A DNA stretch of 28,442 nucleotides, from positions 1-28,442 of IMG/VR virus record IMGVR_UViG_3300030060_001868; one strand, 5' to 3'. The translations under genes and the position numbers were made by a program. Position 1 is the first letter of the stretch. Each line of letters opens with the position of its first letter. Below the pieces are notes generated by a model. It was not told the origin of the DNA, did not search any database, and saw only the letters and a program-made list of their open reading frames with translations. The DNA comes from a virus. This document shows, piece after piece, positions 4,491 to 24,381 of the stretch.

Positions 4491-4612
4491 TGGCAAAAAA
4501 AACAAAACACTTTGTTAAGTTAGAAACAAAAAAAATTAGAAGAAGATTTAAAGATAAACGATTGAGGCATAGAAAAAAACTAGGACCTAAAAGTCATTTA
4601 AGAATAGCATGA
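4490..4612 (+). CDS. 40-aa highly basic protein
   Basis: A 40-residue frame exactly fills the space between its neighbours. Its ATG overlaps the previous stop (TAATG) and its TGA overlaps the next start (ATGA). About half of the residues are Lys, Arg or His (for example KKIRRRFKDKRLRHRKK). There are no cysteines and no membrane segment. Such charge suggests nucleic-acid binding, but no family is recognised. The perfect coupling on both sides is the main reason to call it a gene. Confidence 0.6.
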   Translation: MAKKTKHFVKLETKKIRRRFKDKRLRHRKKLGPKSHLRIA

Positions 4613-5193
4613 TACCTTTTCCAAACAAAAAATATAATATCATATATGCTGATCCACCTTGGAGCTTTGATACATATTCAGATAAAGGCAAAGATAAAAG
4701 TGCAGACAATCATTATGAATGTCAGGATTTAGAATGGATAAAAAATTTACCTGTAACAAAAATAACACAAGATAATTGTTTGTTATTTATGTGGGTTACC
4801 TTTCCAACATTACCAAAAAGTTTTGAAGTTATATCTAGTTGGGGTTTTCAATATTCTACTTGCGGTTTTGTGTGGGTGAAAGCAAATAAAAATTATAATA
4901 AAAAACAATTAACTTTTGTAAAAGAAGAAAAGTTTGATGCTTTTTGGGGATTAGGATATTGGACAAGAGCCAATGCAGAATTATGTTTAATAGCAAAAAA
5001 AGGTTCTATAGAAAGACAATCACGAGGAGTGCATCAAATAGTATATGAGCCAATACAAGAACATAGTAGAAAACCAGATTGTGTAAAAGATAAAATAATA
5101 CAACTTTGTGGAGACTTACCTAGAATAGAATTGTTTGCTAGAAGAGAAACACAAGGTTGGGATGTATGGGGGAATGAAATATGTACGACATAG
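4609..5193 (+). CDS. MT-A70 family adenine methyltransferase
   Basis: A 194-residue protein of the MT-A70 family, whose phage members methylate adenine at N6 using S-adenosylmethionine. The catalytic DPPW motif is at residues 15-18 (IIYADPPW). The family features FMWVTFPTLP and FVWVKANK follow, then a region with GYWTRANAELCLIAKKG and the C-terminal RIELFARRETQGWDVWGNE. The protein is full length for a minimal phage MT-A70 enzyme. The start overlaps the 40-aa gene and the end overlaps the 60-aa gene. A likely role is protection of phage DNA from host restriction; target sequence cannot be read from the gene. No matching restriction gene lies nearby. Confidence 0.92.
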   Translation: MIPFPNKKYNIIYADPPWSFDTYSDKGKDKSADNHYECQDLEWIKNLPVTKITQDNCLLFMWVTFPTLPKSFEVISSWGFQYSTCGFVWVKANKNYNKKQLTFVKEEKFDAFWGLGYWTRANAELCLIAKKGSIERQSRGVHQIVYEPIQEHSRKPDCVKDKIIQLCGDLPRIELFARRETQGWDVWGNEICTT

Positions 5194-12903: not shown

Positions 12904-13593
12904 ATGGCAACTTCTGGAACTACAGCATTTGATTTAGATATAGATGATATTATACAAGAGGCTTATGAAAGATGCGGAGTTAGAACTAATTCTGGATATG
13001 ATTTAAAATCTGCTAGAAGAAGTTTAAATATATTATTTAGTGAGTGGGGTAATAGAGGAGTACATTTATGGAAAGTAGAATTAAAAACTCAAGAGCTTAC
13101 TGCTGGAACAGCGACATATGATGCACCTACAAATGCGAATGATATTTTAGAGGCTTATATATCAACGACTACCTCTCAAACTGCTACAACCAATGATGTA
13201 TCACTAACTAAAATAAGTAGAAGTGAATATGCTGCCTTACCAAATAAAGGATCTCAAGGTCAACCTAGTCAGTATTATGTTGATAGACAAACTACACCTA
13301 AAATAACTTTGTATCAAACACCAGATGCTTCTACATATAAATGTGTGAAATATTATTATTTAAAAAGAATTGAGGATGCTGGTTCATACTCTAATGAAGC
13401 AGACATAGTATTTAGGTTTATACCTTGTATGGTTGCAGGTCTTGCTTATTATTTATCACTAAAAAGAAATCCACAATTAGTCCAACAAAATAAATTATTA
13501 TATGAAGATGAATTACAAAGAGCTTTAACAGAGGATGGACAAAGAACTTCTGTGTATATTACACCACAGAGTTATTTTCCACAAGGTGCTTAG
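12904..13593 (+). CDS. Head-tail adaptor (P22 gp4 / SU10 adaptor-like)
   Basis: A 229-residue protein resembling adaptor or tail-tube-A-type proteins that bind under the portal. Key parts are DIDDIIQEAYERCGVRTNSG (12-31), SARRSLNILFSEWGNRGVHLW (36-56) with the family-typical FSEWGNRG-hLW, then strands ending in TYDAP, and the C-terminal helices FRFIPCMVAGLAYYLSLKRN (about 167-186) followed by LYEDELQRALTEDGQR. Length is typical for such proteins (about 200-230). A related-looking protein lies at 13971. They may form two layers of the connector, or one may be a tail tube protein. Confidence 0.7.
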   Translation: MATSGTTAFDLDIDDIIQEAYERCGVRTNSGYDLKSARRSLNILFSEWGNRGVHLWKVELKTQELTAGTATYDAPTNANDILEAYISTTTSQTATTNDVSLTKISRSEYAALPNKGSQGQPSQYYVDRQTTPKITLYQTPDASTYKCVKYYYLKRIEDAGSYSNEADIVFRFIPCMVAGLAYYLSLKRNPQLVQQNKLLYEDELQRALTEDGQRTSVYITPQSYFPQGA

Positions 13594-13974
13594 ATGCCAT
13601 ATGCAAGAGGTAAATATGCAAAAGCAATATCAGATAGATCAGGCATGGCATTTCCTTATAATGAAATGGTAAAAGAATGGAATGGTTTACTGGTACATAA
13701 ATCTGAATATGAAGAAAAACATCCACAAATTAGAAGAAAACATATTAAGGGAGATGCTATAGCTTTAGCAAACGCAAGACCTAGACCTAAAGATGATGAT
13801 AAACAATTTGTGCTATATATCAGTAGTGGTTTTTTTGCAGAAAGCGGAGATAGTGGTATAAACAGTGGTGCAAGTATGACAGTAACAGACAGTAAGGATA
13901 TATTAGGAACAACTTTAACTTCTTTTGAATTAACAACATCTGTTGGAACAGATTTTACAGTGACAATAACATGA
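13594..13974 (+). CDS. Small virion-type protein between adaptor genes
   Basis: A 126-residue protein with the N-terminal block ARGKYAKAISDRSGMAFPYN (4-23) followed by EMVKEWNGLLVHKSEYEEKHPQ. I associate this block with a conserved protein of many marine phages. The SDRS position looks like where a paired-Cys motif could sit in relatives, but here both positions are Ser. The second half (75-126) is Ser/Thr/Gly-rich and beta-like. The start is immediately after the previous stop and the end overlaps the next start (ATGA). Probably a small tail or connector component. Confidence 0.6.
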   Translation: MPYARGKYAKAISDRSGMAFPYNEMVKEWNGLLVHKSEYEEKHPQIRRKHIKGDAIALANARPRPKDDDKQFVLYISSGFFAESGDSGINSGASMTVTDSKDILGTTLTSFELTTSVGTDFTVTIT

Positions 13975-14618
13975 GCATATCTCACACAAATTTTTTAACA
14001 CAAGTAAGAAACTACACTGAGGTAGATTCAAATGTTTTATCGGATACTTTGTTAGACCAATTTATAAGAAATACAGAATTGGATATTGCAAATAAAGTTG
14101 ATTATGATGATATAAGAGAATATGTCACTGCTGTAACAGGCACTCTAAAATATTTAAATGTACCTGATGATTGTTTAGTAATTCGTTCCGTACAAATTAT
14201 AAGTAGCAATGTTAGAGATTTTTTGGAAAAAAGAGATACTTCTTTTATAGCAGAATTTAATCCAAATGATTCTACAGGACAACCTAAATATTATGCTAAT
14301 TGGGATGATAAAAATATTTTATTTGCTCCAGTGCCAGACCAAGCATATGATATACAATTAAATTATATTAAAGACCCAGAGCATTTTAATTCTACGACAG
14401 ATACTTTTTTATCTAAACATCAAGAGGCTTTATTGTTACATGGTGTATTGACTGAATGTTTTAGTTATTTAAAAGGTCCTGTTGATATGTACAACTTATA
14501 CAAAACAAAGTATAATGAAGAAATACAAGACTTTGCATTGCAACAAATGGGTCGAAGAAGAAGAGCCGAGTACGATGATGGTGTACCTAGATTAAAAGTA
14601 GCTTCTCCTTCACCTTAA
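13971..14618 (+). CDS. Second head-tail connector protein
   Basis: A 215-residue protein that begins SHTNFLTQVRNYTEVDSNVLSD and has DTLLDQFIRNTELDIANKVD (about 24-43), a pattern typical of phage connector and gp6/gp11-like adaptors. It continues with strands LKYLNVPDDCLVIRSVQI and ILFAPVPDQAYDIQLNYIK. C-terminal helices (LSKHQEALLLHGVLTECFSY; YKTKYNEEIQDFALQQMGRR) follow. It shares helix-sheet-helix order with the protein at 12904, so both may have the same fold. It overlaps its predecessor (ATGA) and is followed by a strong ribosome site for the next virion gene. Confidence 0.65.
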   Translation: MSISHTNFLTQVRNYTEVDSNVLSDTLLDQFIRNTELDIANKVDYDDIREYVTAVTGTLKYLNVPDDCLVIRSVQIISSNVRDFLEKRDTSFIAEFNPNDSTGQPKYYANWDDKNILFAPVPDQAYDIQLNYIKDPEHFNSTTDTFLSKHQEALLLHGVLTECFSYLKGPVDMYNLYKTKYNEEIQDFALQQMGRRRRAEYDDGVPRLKVASPSP

Positions 14619-14635: not shown

Positions 14636-15076
14636 ATGGCAATAACAACAAGTGCAGTGTGTAATGTTTTTAAGACAGATGTTTTAAAAGGAGTGCACAA
14701 TTTCACAGCAGCACCTACTGGAAACACTTTTAAATTAAGTATGTACACTAGCTCTGCTACTTTAGGAAAATCAACAACATCTTTTACATCCGATGCTCAA
14801 GTATCTTCACCATCTGGTTACACCAGTGGTGGAAAAGCCTTGGTTGCGGTAACACCTGTGTTAAGCAGTGATACAGCAGTAGTGGATTTTGCTGATTTAT
14901 CTTTTGTGGGTGTTTCACTTACTGCAAGAGGAGCTTTAATTTATAACGACTCTGCTAGTGGCGACCCAGCAGTCGCAGTTTTAGATTTTGGTGGAGATAA
15001 AACAGCTACCTCTGGAACTTTTACAATACAATTTCCTACTGCTAATTCATCAAGTGCTATTATAAGAATAGCTTAA
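14636..15076 (+). CDS. Virion structural protein
   Basis: A 146-residue beta-rich protein with low charge and much Ser, Thr, Ala and Val. The start is MAITTSAVCNVFKTDVLKGV, then KLSMYTSSATLGKSTTSF. VDFADLSFVGVSLTARGALIY lies mid-protein, and it ends FPTANSSSAIIRIA. I associate this protein with tail or head-surface genes next to fibre genes in marine phages. AAGGAG sits 8 nt before the ATG. No catalytic motif. It may be a head fibre or tail sheet-like domain; the role is not established. Confidence 0.65.
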   Translation: MAITTSAVCNVFKTDVLKGVHNFTAAPTGNTFKLSMYTSSATLGKSTTSFTSDAQVSSPSGYTSGGKALVAVTPVLSSDTAVVDFADLSFVGVSLTARGALIYNDSASGDPAVAVLDFGGDKTATSGTFTIQFPTANSSSAIIRIA

Positions 15077-15092: not shown

Positions 15093-16175
15093 GTGACTAC
15101 AAGAACAATTACTGTCACAGTTCAAAATGTCGGTGGTAATAATAAGTATTTTCTTGATGGTGTCCAACAAGACACACTTACTTTAGCTGAAGGCGGTACC
15201 TATGTATTTAATTGGTCTGCTGCAACAAGTCATCCTGTAAGATTTTCAACAACTTCTGATGGCACTCATAACAGTGGTAGTGAATATACTACTGGTGTTA
15301 CAAAAGATGATGGTAATTATTTAACCACCATACAAGTAGCTGCTTCTGCTCCAACTTTATATTATTATTGTCAATATCACTCTGGTATGGGTGGTCAACT
15401 TAACACCGAGGCTGCAAACACTTGGGGTTTATTATCTTGGAGTGAGGGTAGTTGGGGAGCTCAAAACAATATAGATGTTTCTGTTACTGGTGTTGTTTCT
15501 ACGACAGCGGTGGGTTCTGTTACTGTGGATGCAGAGATAGGACAAGGTTGGGGTAGAGGAACATGGGGTAATAGAGTTTGGGGTGGTGCTTATTCTGTAA
15601 TAGTAACAGGTGTAAGTGCAACTAGTGCAGTGGGTTCTGTTACAGCTTCTACATCAGTAACTGTTGCAGTATCTGGTGTTGCTACAACCTCTGCGGTAGG
15701 AAGTGTAACTACAACACAAGGAGTTGAAATAACTCCAACTGGACAAGAGTTAACTGGCTCGATAGGCACAGTTGATTTTGATGGAGATGCTTCAACTGGA
15801 GTGACAGGAGTTGCTATGACATCTGTAGTAGGAGAGGCAATCGTTGCACCTATTACATTAATAGATGTTACTGGAGTAGCCATGACAAGCTCTGTTGGAG
15901 ATGTTGTATTGTTAATGACAGGCACAGTGAATGTAACAGGTGTATCTTCTACATCATCGGTTGGTTCAATAACTCCAGTTTCTGGTTATGATGTTACTGG
16001 AGTAGCCATGACATCCGCAGTTGGCACACCAGCAGAAATAACTGGTACAGGCACAGTTGATGATGTTACTGGTGTAGCATTGACTACTAGTGTTGGAAGT
16101 GTAATAATAATTTCATGGAACAAAGTAGACACTGGAACTCCAGTGACTTGGACTAAAATAACAACAGCAGCATAA
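15093..16175 (+). CDS. Cupredoxin-like virion protein with VTGV tandem repeats
   Basis: A 360-residue protein with two parts. Residues 1-105 form a cupredoxin-like beta domain: NNKYFLDGVQQDTLTLAEGG, SHPVRFSTTSDGTH (46-59), YYYCQYHSGMGG (90-101). H47, C93, H96 and M99 match a type-1 copper set in order and spacing (C-x2-H-x2-M, as in amicyanin). Then come Trp/Gly segments (WGLLSWSEGSWG; WGRGTWGNRVWGG). Residues about 129-336 hold nine copies of a unit like VTGVxxTSxVGxV. The GTG start is chosen because AGGAG lies 9 nt upstream. Related cupredoxin-like domains occur in marine phage structural proteins. Copper binding is not shown; the domain might serve as a stable adhesive or fibre head. Probably a tail-associated protein. 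Confidence 0.78.
   Translation: MTTRTITVTVQNVGGNNKYFLDGVQQDTLTLAEGGTYVFNWSAATSHPVRFSTTSDGTHNSGSEYTTGVTKDDGNYLTTIQVAASAPTLYYYCQYHSGMGGQLNTEAANTWGLLSWSEGSWGAQNNIDVSVTGVVSTTAVGSVTVDAEIGQGWGRGTWGNRVWGGAYSVIVTGVSATSAVGSVTASTSVTVAVSGVATTSAVGSVTTTQGVEITPTGQELTGSIGTVDFDGDASTGVTGVAMTSVVGEAIVAPITLIDVTGVAMTSSVGDVVLLMTGTVNVTGVSSTSSVGSITPVSGYDVTGVAMTSAVGTPAEITGTGTVDDVTGVALTTSVGSVIIISWNKVDTGTPVTWTKITTAA
15477..16100 (+). repeat. Nine tandem coding repeats (VTGVxxTSxVGxV)
   Basis: Nine degenerate units start near 15483, 15602, 15675, 15738, 15802, 15867, 15934, 15993 and 16063, inside the cupredoxin-like protein gene. Two of them share a 24-base identical block (15864-15887 and 15990-16013), which indicates fairly recent duplication or gene conversion. 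The fourth is the most diverged (TGQELTGSIGTV). A beta-strand-turn-strand unit is likely. Confidence 0.85.
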
Positions 16176-16188
16176 TAAAGGATAAAAT

Positions 16189-17154
16189 ATGGCTTCAACA
16201 TACTCATCAGATTTAAAACTGGAACTCATGGCTACTGGTGAAAATGCTGGTACATGGGGAACAAAAACAAACACAAATTTAAATTTAGTACAACAAGCAA
16301 TCGGTGGATTTGAACAAGTAACAGTAGGAGATGGAGCTACAGTTGCACTAGCAATGACTGATGGCACTATATCAAACGCAAGGAACATGGTAGTCAAAGT
16401 GGCTACAGTTACTTTATCTGGAGCAACAGTTTTAACTGTGCCAGACAGTATTGAAAAAATGTATATTTTTGATGTAACTGGAGTAACTAATCCAACAAAC
16501 TTAACTATTAAAACTGCAAGTGGTTCTGGTTTTTCTCCAGACCAACAAAAAATATATTTTGCTTACGCAGATGGAACGAATATTGTTGAAGTTTCATTAG
16601 ACAGTTTGGGTGGTGCGGTAGGTACAGCAAGTTTACCAACAGTACCAGTTACAAAAGGTGGTACAGGTTTAACATCTGCTGGTTCTGCAAATCAAGCATT
16701 AAAAATGAATAGTGGTGGTAGTGCTTTAGAGTTTGGCACATTAGCAATAGCTGGTGGTGGAACTGGTGCAACAACTTTAGCTGGTGCTAATATTGTAGCG
16801 TCAAATGCAAATACAACTTTTACAAAAGCATTAAGAGGATCTACTCAAACTGCTGGTTCTCAAACTGGTAATGTTACTTTAGATTTTGACACTTACCAAA
16901 ACTTTGTTTTAACAGCAACAGGTAATGTAACACTAGATAATCCAAGCACAGAATCAGTAGGACAGTCTGGTATTATAGTATTTATTCAAGATGGTACTGG
17001 TAGTAGAACATTAAGTCTTGGTACAGATTATGAAACTGCTGGTGGTGCTGGTTTGACTATATCAACAGCCGCTAATGCAGTCGATGTCATACCATATTTT
17101 GTCAAGGCTGCTGGGTCAATACAACTAGGAGCACCTCAACTTGCGTTTGCATAG
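16189..17154 (+). CDS. Tail fibre/virion protein with GGTG-type repeats
   Basis: A 321-residue protein starting MASTYSSDLKLELMATGENAG then TWGTKTNTNLNLV, an N-terminus common in phage fibre or virion proteins, probably the attachment domain. Residues about 40-140 are beta-rich. VTKGGTGLTSAGSANQALKM (about 161-180) and AGGGTGATTLAG (about 194-205) are the fibre-type GGTG shaft motifs. The C-terminal part (about 215-321) is beta-rich, with NVTLDFDTYQNFVLTATGN and a final jelly-roll-like stretch. No Cys. AAAGGA precedes the ATG. It likely forms part of the tail or host-contact fibre. Confidence 0.72.
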   Translation: MASTYSSDLKLELMATGENAGTWGTKTNTNLNLVQQAIGGFEQVTVGDGATVALAMTDGTISNARNMVVKVATVTLSGATVLTVPDSIEKMYIFDVTGVTNPTNLTIKTASGSGFSPDQQKIYFAYADGTNIVEVSLDSLGGAVGTASLPTVPVTKGGTGLTSAGSANQALKMNSGGSALEFGTLAIAGGGTGATTLAGANIVASNANTTFTKALRGSTQTAGSQTGNVTLDFDTYQNFVLTATGNVTLDNPSTESVGQSGIIVFIQDGTGSRTLSLGTDYETAGGAGLTISTAANAVDVIPYFVKAAGSIQLGAPQLAFA

Positions 17155-17166
17155 GAGACATTACTA

Positions 17167-17979
17167 ATGCCAGTACAAGGTGAATTTTTTCAAAAACCAG
17201 CAGGAAGTAGTGGTTTTTATGACTATTTGATTTCTAATAGCTGTAGATTCGATAAAGCAGCTAGTTCTAGATTATATAGAACTTTTGGTACACCTTCAAG
17301 TGCTACAAAAATGACAATCAGTTGGTGGATGAAACATGGTATTATTCCAGATTATCAACAAGTTTTTTCTAAATCTGGAGGTTATGGTGGAGGAAATGGT
17401 GCTTCAATAACACTAAATGATAGTCTTGGTGGTTATGCTGATATAATTACTATGTATGGAATGAAAGGAAGTGGTGGAGGAAGCACAGGTGGAAATACTT
17501 ATCCTGCTAATGCGTTTAGAGATTACAGTGGTTGGACACATTGCCATTATAAGATGGACACTAGTAAAAGTGGAATGTCTGGTACTAATGCAAAAGTAGT
17601 TATGCACATTAATGGAGTAAATGCAGTATTTGTCAATACAAATGAACCTTCAGGCAATTTTGATAATTTTAATACTAATGGTGATGTTCACTCTATAGGA
17701 AATGGTAATGGTTACGACCAAGGAGATATTAGTTTAGCAGAGTTTATATTTTTAGATGGGCAGTATGAAGATTATACATCTTTTGGTGAATTTAAAGGTG
17801 GAAATATATGGATACCTAAAGACCCTAGTAGTTTAGATTTTAGTGGTAATAATTCTTTTCATTTAAAATTTGAAGATGCTTCTAACCTAGGCAATGACAG
17901 TAGTTCGAACAATAATGATTTTACATCAACAGGACTTGGTACAGATCATCAAGTTTTAGACTCACCGACCTTCTCATGA
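17167..17979 (+). CDS. LamG-like (concanavalin A-fold) tail fibre protein
   Basis: A 270-residue protein with a laminin-G/concanavalin-like lectin domain (about 20-235). Markers are LYRTFGTPSSATKMTISWWMK (about 34-54), YSGWTHCHYKMDTSK (about 119-133), VVMHINGV and the end region DISLAEFIFLDGQYEDYTSF followed by LHFKFED-type residues. These domains bind glycans. It ends QVLDSPTFS and then two in-frame stops, TGA TGA. The next gene starts 18 nt later in the same frame with SGNFCTWNALTG, and in related fibres LamG and the following domain are joined by a similar linker, as far as I recall. It could therefore be the first half of a split gene. AGGAG precedes the start. Confidence 0.72.
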   Translation: MPVQGEFFQKPAGSSGFYDYLISNSCRFDKAASSRLYRTFGTPSSATKMTISWWMKHGIIPDYQQVFSKSGGYGGGNGASITLNDSLGGYADIITMYGMKGSGGGSTGGNTYPANAFRDYSGWTHCHYKMDTSKSGMSGTNAKVVMHINGVNAVFVNTNEPSGNFDNFNTNGDVHSIGNGNGYDQGDISLAEFIFLDGQYEDYTSFGEFKGGNIWIPKDPSSLDFSGNNSFHLKFEDASNLGNDSSSNNNDFTSTGLGTDHQVLDSPTFS

Positions 17980-23481: not shown

Positions 23482-23819
23482 CGATACAATTTAAAAATGC
23501 TGGTTTTAATTTAACCACCACTGGTACAACTTCTGTTTTAACAGCTCCTACTAATGGGAGATGTTTAGTAAAACAAATACAAGCACATAATGGTTCAACA
23601 GGAAATGTAAATTTATCAACGCAAGTAACTGATACGAGTGCTACAGCAACTTTTAGAATAGATAATGCATCTATTGCAGCTAATACAACAAGACAAATAA
23701 TATCGCAAACTTTAGTATTAGAAGAGGGTGATGTTATAAAAATGACCGCTGGTACAGCAAACGAAATACAAGGTATTATATCGTATGCTTTATTGGATAG
23801 GTCGCAAGAAAATGGTTAG
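23478..23819 (+). CDS. Small virion-type protein
   Basis: A 113-residue beta-rich protein starting MTIQFKNAGFNLTTTGTTSV. It has one Cys in GRCLVKQIQAHNGSTGNVNL (about 28-47), then TFRIDNASIAANTTRQIISQ and TLVLEEGDVIKMTAGTANEI, a jelly-roll-like pattern. I associate this with small structural proteins in marine phages. It is similar in length and beta pattern to the protein at 10282. Its end overlaps the hydroxylase start by 8 nt (ATGGTTAG). Confidence 0.6.
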   Translation: MTIQFKNAGFNLTTTGTTSVLTAPTNGRCLVKQIQAHNGSTGNVNLSTQVTDTSATATFRIDNASIAANTTRQIISQTLVLEEGDVIKMTAGTANEIQGIISYALLDRSQENG

Positions 23820-24381
23820 CAAACTTTCAGATTCTATTTTTTTACTAAAAAGTTTTGTCACAAAAGATTGGGCAAACAATATAGTGAAGTATGCTGATTT
23901 AGTTTGCAAACAAAAAGCAACAGTATTGGGAGAAAAAAAACATATTAAAGATACTAAGATCAGAGATGTTTTAACATATGGGTTTAGCGAAAATGTTGAA
24001 CAAGATATAATTTATTTAAATTATTTAGTAGATGTTATATCTAAAGCACTAGAAGAATACATGAAGTTTTTTACTTATATAAATCCTCGTATGCGTATGG
24101 ACAGTGCTAACCTTTTAAAATATGAAGTTGGTAATTATTATAAAACACATATAGATGCTCATACCTCTGTAAACCGAATCGTTTCTGTAATTATTAATTT
24201 AAATCAAGATTACGAAGGCGGTGGTATAATTTTTTATGAAAATAAAACGAGAGTGCCATATACTAAATGTGAGTTAAAAACTGGGGATTTGCTTATGTTT
24301 CCGAGCACTTTTCTATATCCACACAGTGTGCAACCCATAACTAAAGGTAATCGATATTCTATAGTTGCATGGTTGAATTAA
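23812..24381 (+). CDS. 2OG-Fe(II) oxygenase (prolyl 4-hydroxylase-like)
   Basis: A 189-residue dioxygenase of the prolyl 4-hydroxylase-like family, which uses 2-oxoglutarate, O2 and Fe(II). The iron ligands appear as H113 and D115 in THIDAH and H171 in YPHSVQP. The 2-oxoglutarate contact is R181 in GNRYSIVAW. YEVGNYY (104-110) and the strand VSVIINLNQDYEGGGIIFYE (124-143) are typical. The frame also reads from an ATG at 23785, but that lies deep in the previous gene; the ATG at 23812 has an 8-nt overlap and is more likely. The substrate is unknown: a virion or fibre protein, host protein or modified base are all possible. It begins the accessory block. Confidence 0.85.
   Translation: MVSKLSDSIFLLKSFVTKDWANNIVKYADLVCKQKATVLGEKKHIKDTKIRDVLTYGFSENVEQDIIYLNYLVDVISKALEEYMKFFTYINPRMRMDSANLLKYEVGNYYKTHIDAHTSVNRIVSVIINLNQDYEGGGIIFYENKTRVPYTKCELKTGDLLMFPSTFLYPHSVQPITKGNRYSIVAWLN

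Follow-up and report, generated by a model that had tools for sequence, protein, structure and literature searches.

Does a marine phage tail carry a working copper site, or only a protein fold that resembles one? The question is raised by a single gene in a stretch of 28,442 nt, positions 1 to 28,442 of IMG/VR record IMGVR_UViG_3300030060_001868; by "the window" we mean this whole stretch. The gene product, a protein of 360 residues, can be divided into an N-terminal cupredoxin domain and a repetitive C-terminal part. The initial annotation placed four residues resembling the ligands of type-1 copper, H47, C93, H96, and M99, in the N-terminal domain; this numbering is exact for ORF 15093–16175, and the C-x2-H-x2-M order and spacing are indeed those of amicyanin. 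The gene and its parts are as follows.

15093..16175, + strand: virion (tail-module) protein, 360 aa, GTG start (PHROG matches to virion structural and baseplate/tail-fibre connector families)
15093..15410, + strand: cupredoxin domain, residues 1–106 (AlphaFold2 model; Foldseek against the PDB; IMG/VR relatives)
15231..15233, + strand: H47, putative first His ligand, with the near-invariant Pro48 next to it at 15234–15236 (sequence, homologues)
15369..15371, + strand: C93, putative Cys thiolate ligand at the end of a strand (sequence, AlphaFold2 model)
15378..15380, + strand: H96, putative second His ligand (sequence, homologues)
15387..15389, + strand: M99, putative axial Met ligand (sequence, homologues)
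15411..16175, + strand: C-terminal Trp-rich segment and "VTGVxxTSxVG" beta repeats (sequence)

C93 is the sole Cys of the protein, and two of its three His are ligands. Close homologues have a possible start at the codon position that matches the start of ORF 15093–16175. Chance could be ruled out as the origin of the H...C-x2-H-x2-M motif, since a His followed by C-x2-H-x2-M 31–71 residues on was obtained in only 2 of 200,000 shuffles of the window protein.

Genomic setting and distribution

The gene lies in a structural module, and the following neighbors should be kept in mind when interpreting it.

13971..14618, + strand: SU10-type adaptor (head-tail; PF24175, E=1e-18)
14636..15076, + strand: phrog_644 family protein, conserved gene adjacent upstream (PHROG)
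16189..17154, + strand: phrog_31104 family protein, conserved downstream gene (PHROG)
17167..17979, + strand: phrog_27411 family protein (PHROG), with a cupredoxin fusion in L097, L100, L102, L103, and L133
17998..19842, + strand: DUF7483 virion/tail-fibre protein (PF24299, E=3.6e-102), with a cupredoxin fusion in eight related loci

The order of these genes (SU10-type adaptor, phrog_644, cupredoxin gene, phrog_31104, phrog_27411, DUF7483) is retained in relatives. In the five fused loci, the cupredoxin domain is found between phrog_27411 and DUF7483, and in three further loci it is joined with DUF7483; elsewhere, it occurs in a T7-type tail fibre (AP013543) and in a fibre of P-SSM2, where it follows collagen repeats. 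Both the structural module and the tail-fibre and baseplate fusions of relatives thus mark the product as a tail or virion protein. A tail-fibre homologue in S-SCSM1 (L164) is annotated "virion protein"; the virions of this phage have been analyzed by mass spectrometry, and the ORF is unnamed in the main text of the paper that describes that work. We also considered the gene at 14636–15076 as the partner half of fused relatives of 250–270 aa, and ruled it out because the sequence differs.

Several other features of the window deserve mention. The SU10 adaptor family is matched by two different ORFs one gene apart (12904–13593 and 13971–14618), and a DNA methyltransferase-like ORF (4609–5193) is found between the portal and capsid genes. 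A 2OG-Fe(II) oxygenase gene (23785–24381) lies downstream of the tail module, and P-SSM2 (L156) likewise has a gene named piuC near a cupredoxin-bearing tail fibre.

Related stretches in IMG/VR number more than 500. Among 50,697 phage records, the only matches were in marine cyanophages, pelagiphages, and virus records that are marine or uncultured, and a search of plasmids gave no match to the domain. As far as their sequences tell, hundreds of related marine phages hold the four putative ligands as a set. Each of the 16 virus records searched possesses exactly one copy of the domain, and the proteins that carry it differ. In a P-HM1 protein (PHM1_104, L155:2159–5330), a subtilase (PF00082, E=2.3e-28) is joined to two cupredoxin domains, and PF00127 matches one of these below threshold.

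One relative (L013) provides a useful comparison, in that its domain protein is ~90% identical to that of the window, whereas identity is 37% for the phrog_27411 protein next to it. The domain is, therefore, unlike a fast-evolving host-range determinant, and the contrast would fit a role that is conserved rather than host-specific.

Fold and family membership

Residues 1–106 were modeled with AlphaFold2 fed with 29 homologous sequences, giving a mean pLDDT of 95.4 and a pTM of 0.87. In this model (strands assigned by DSSP), H47 lies just ahead of strand 49–52, C93 closes strand 89–93, and H96 and M99 fall within the loop preceding strand 101–105. This predicted placement is the cupredoxin arrangement, that is, a beta-sandwich in which a His precedes a middle strand, a Cys ends the penultimate strand, and the His/Met pair occupies the next loop.

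A Foldseek search of the PDB with the model returned type-1 copper proteins or copper nitrite reductases as all of its top 17 matches, including plastocyanin, pseudoazurin, rusticyanin, and copper nitrite reductase; a pseudoazurin carrying an engineered amicyanin loop ranks tenth. The best E-value is 9.3e-4, with TM-scores to known cupredoxins of only ~0.4–0.6 and an rmsd of 5–7 Å. Structure prediction might have placed the ligands apart; at the level of strands, the predicted topology and the Foldseek matches fit a type-1 site instead. The model of the full-length protein is of low confidence (pLDDT 46.9), and the repeats at 15411–16175 are not interpreted from it. Among giant viruses (pithovirus- and marseillevirus-like), short "beta-sandwich proteins" (BFVD A0A481Z6J5, A0A481YVH3, and A0A481Z7Q7) also structurally resemble the domain.

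The link to cupredoxins is strong by fold but weak by sequence. Searched by sequence against the PDB, neither the window protein nor a profile of close relatives gave a significant cupredoxin match, and a deep profile gave weak matches to copper proteins (9cck, E=0.01; plastocyanins, E=0.16–0.4). When a 51-member family profile was compared with amicyanin using hhalign, the four ligands came into register (E=0.0013, probability 19%); they were also in register in a sequence search with a SAR86 homologue, for which plastocyanin was the first match (E=0.016). The window protein has no cupredoxin match in Pfam or NCBIfam: it does not match PF00127 (Copper-bind) at the gathering cut-off, below which the domains of P-HM1, SAR86, and K189A do match, nor does it match TIGR02657 (amicyanin), to which S-RIM14 gp9 shows a weak match (E=0.1).

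How, then, should one classify the domain? It possesses the type-1 ligands (two His, a Cys, and an axial Met/Gln, in the order H...C..H..M) and the C-x2-H-x2-M loop of amicyanin. The Asn that follows the first His in amicyanin is replaced by Pro48 in the window and by Pro in 266 of 273 homologue domains. Amicyanin passes the PS00196 pattern, [GA]-x(0,2)-[YSA]-x(0,1)-[VFY]-x-C-x(1,2)-[PG]-x(0,1)-H-x(2,4)-[MQ] (PMC517927), whereas the window domain fails it, and so do the motif-bearing homologue domains (0/388 pass).

The domain is best filed as a separate cupredoxin family, which is neither amicyanin nor plastocyanin by curated model and which probably descends from type-1 cupredoxins and would work like them. 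Its approximate signature, as read from the homologues, would be H-P-[FLIV]-x-[FLI] ... P-x(0,2)-L-Y-Y-x-C-x2-H-x2-M-x-G. With Pro at the second-sphere Asn position and no Pro ahead of the second His, the site need not be of the ordinary blue kind.

Conservation of the four ligands

Search motifs that contain the ligands would bias any count of their conservation, a problem controlled here by three scans with patterns that omit the ligands being tested. Patterns from the half ahead of H47 recovered 74 distinct domains, 72 of which have all four ligands, the two exceptions being truncated before C93. With patterns from the middle of the domain, H47 is retained and all four ligands are present in 75/75 distinct domains, and a ligand-free pattern for the cyanophage gp9-type subfamily found all four in 57/57 distinct sequences. 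By these counts, there is no free loss of the ligands among homologues.

The codons of the ligands vary silently (Cys, TGT in 258 and TGC in 130; His96, CAT in 205 and CAC in 183; His47, CAT in 212 and CAC in 161), and such variation at invariant residues indicates diverged genes in which the ligands are under selection. Positions 94, 95, 97, and 98, between the ligands, vary freely among homologues, and the H47–C93 spacing takes values between 41 and 56 with the ligands retained.

Grouping at 60% identity of the 423 distinct domains that span all four ligand columns gave 54 clusters. Four ligands are present in 44 of these, three in one, and one or none in nine; clusters that have lost exactly two are absent (0/54). 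The three-ligand cluster is a SAR86 protein in which Met is replaced by Gln, a known axial ligand in working copper proteins. Random re-dealing of the losses, a control that ignores relatedness, never yields this all-or-none split. Eight of the nine ligand-poor clusters represent one domain of a cyanomyovirus baseplate protein, and the other is in phage PSS2; because these are mostly one orthologous domain, one should count about two or three independent losses, not nine.

The ligand-free domain retains other features of the family, for example, the G-x-T-Y-x-F strand, and the fold is thus independent of the ligands. Because the ligands stay or go together, and their loss leaves the fold intact, an active metal site is favored over a relic or a role in packing. 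The suggestion made at the outset that this might be a former copper site is disfavored on the same grounds, as drift under relaxed constraint sits poorly with the three scans and with the all-or-none clusters.

The baseplate wedge protein encoded after gp9 in cyanomyoviruses (L161:809–5216, L162:812–5204, and L165:1349–5231) has two copies of the domain. One copy has all four ligands; in the other, none or almost none of them are left and the fold pattern is kept, so that it offers a natural metal-free control.

Candidate roles and known systems

Sequence, predicted fold, conservation of the ligands as a unit, and tail-gene context are the basis of the explanation to which we lean, with somewhat better than even confidence: a cupredoxin family, unnamed until now, that has a working type-1-like copper site and would provide a rigid contact surface on the tails of marine phages. 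It is likely that the domain binds copper; for the presence of copper in the mature virion, we regard the chances as evenly balanced. That the copper would serve to stabilize a contact surface, rather than to carry electrons, is proposed tentatively and with some doubt.

The bacterial cytosol, in which virions assemble, is nearly devoid of free copper, and the site would therefore probably be loaded after lysis. Copper entering at that stage would clamp the ligand loop, and the clamped domain would form a rigid, exposed beta-sandwich tip that may touch a common feature of the host surface.

Should copper be bound, a tail metalloprotein would be present in marine cyanophages and pelagiphages already sequenced by the hundreds, where such proteins now go under the annotation "hypothetical" or "baseplate wedge tail fibre connector," and infection would be tied to a trace metal that is scarce at sea. 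The proposal is directly testable, since the domain is also present in gp9 of isolated cyanophages. A bolder version, in which marine phage tails, those of the abundant cyanomyoviruses included, bear a functional copper redox center that governs adsorption or genome release through its metal state or copper content, seems unlikely; were it true, copper would be a cofactor of infection in the ocean.

The main alternative to a copper-clamped contact surface is an adhesive cupredoxin-like fold without metal, whose conserved residues would serve packing or a binding surface and whose native virions would be copper-free. Assembly in a cytosol almost without free copper speaks for it, as do the ligand-free copies of the fold in cyanomyovirus baseplate proteins; those same copies, however, show that the fold does without the four residues, and it is hard to see why two His, a Cys, and a Met would be kept as a unit, with the positions between them free to vary, if no metal were held. 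We consider this alternative improbable. Zinc, iron, or nickel might occupy the site in vivo instead, and cupredoxins may indeed take up zinc in recombinant hosts, but two His, a Cys, and a Met in the cupredoxin fold and order are the copper set, and Met is a poor ligand for zinc, so that another metal is very hard to credit.

Two further readings accept copper and give it a different task, and both are less supported than the contact surface. The copper might exchange an electron at the host envelope, its change of state triggering a shift in conformation during adsorption or DNA release. In favor of such a redox module, the ligand set matches that of electron carriers, and the Met-to-Gln change in SAR86, the sole single-site deviation, is one that occurs in working copper proteins; yet no conserved redox partner is seen nearby, the cellular homologues adjoin housekeeping-like genes, and the domain sits in tail proteins of very diverse types, all of which leave the idea with a low probability. 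Tail copper might otherwise act as bait, a copper Ferrojan Horse that steers the phage to receptors with which metal-starved ocean bacteria take up or bind copper. The restriction of the domain to marine phage and virus records and its terminal position on tail fibres and connectors are consistent with bait, but the same domain is also present on cellular lipoproteins, for which bait makes no sense, and we know of no receptor that would suit this reading, to which we give little credence.

The contact surface that we prefer can be set against several known systems. Amicyanin uses His53, Cys92, His95, and Met98, a C-x2-H-x2-M loop, with Asn54 and Pro94 as second-sphere residues that tune the site (PMC12723479). 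The phage domain shares with amicyanin (PDB 1aac; TIGR02657) the H...C-x2-H-x2-M order, the loop length, the beta-sandwich topology, and the ligand register, but it has Pro in place of Asn54 and a variable residue in place of Pro94, and it is part of a tail protein, whereas amicyanin is a free periplasmic electron carrier. Plastocyanin and pseudoazurin (PF00127) are the best fold matches of the domain, though sequence similarity is marginal and their location and role are different. Their loop is C-x2-H-x4-M.

The cellular copies belong for the most part to lipoproteins of SAR86, K189A, SAR92, and Marine Group II archaea, in which the C-terminal domain is ~45–58% identical and has all of the ligands; these proteins differ from those of phages in having a signal peptide with a lipobox-like Cys and a chromosomal context. 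Judged by eye, the neighbors of the cellular copies are housekeeping-like, with no copper system seen among them. The lipoproteins (L349, L354, L376, L380, L393, and others) often have poly-Gly past the lipobox-like Cys, and cadherin/collagen repeats.

According to the initial annotation, structural proteins of marine phages are known to have cupredoxin-like domains, but we found no paper in open-access texts that reports a cupredoxin domain in any phage structural protein. The Ferrojan Horse hypothesis likewise has a metal borne on the phage tail, though it concerns iron and does not involve a cupredoxin copper site (PMC11705849). Among phage proteins, the gp9 "baseplate wedge tail fibre connector" of marine cyanomyoviruses (phrog_677; S-RIM14, Syn33, and ACG-2014b) possesses the domain with its four ligands at the C-terminus, behind an N-terminal part that is T4 gp9/10-like (PF07880), whereas in the window protein the domain is N-terminal and the remainder is rich in repeats.
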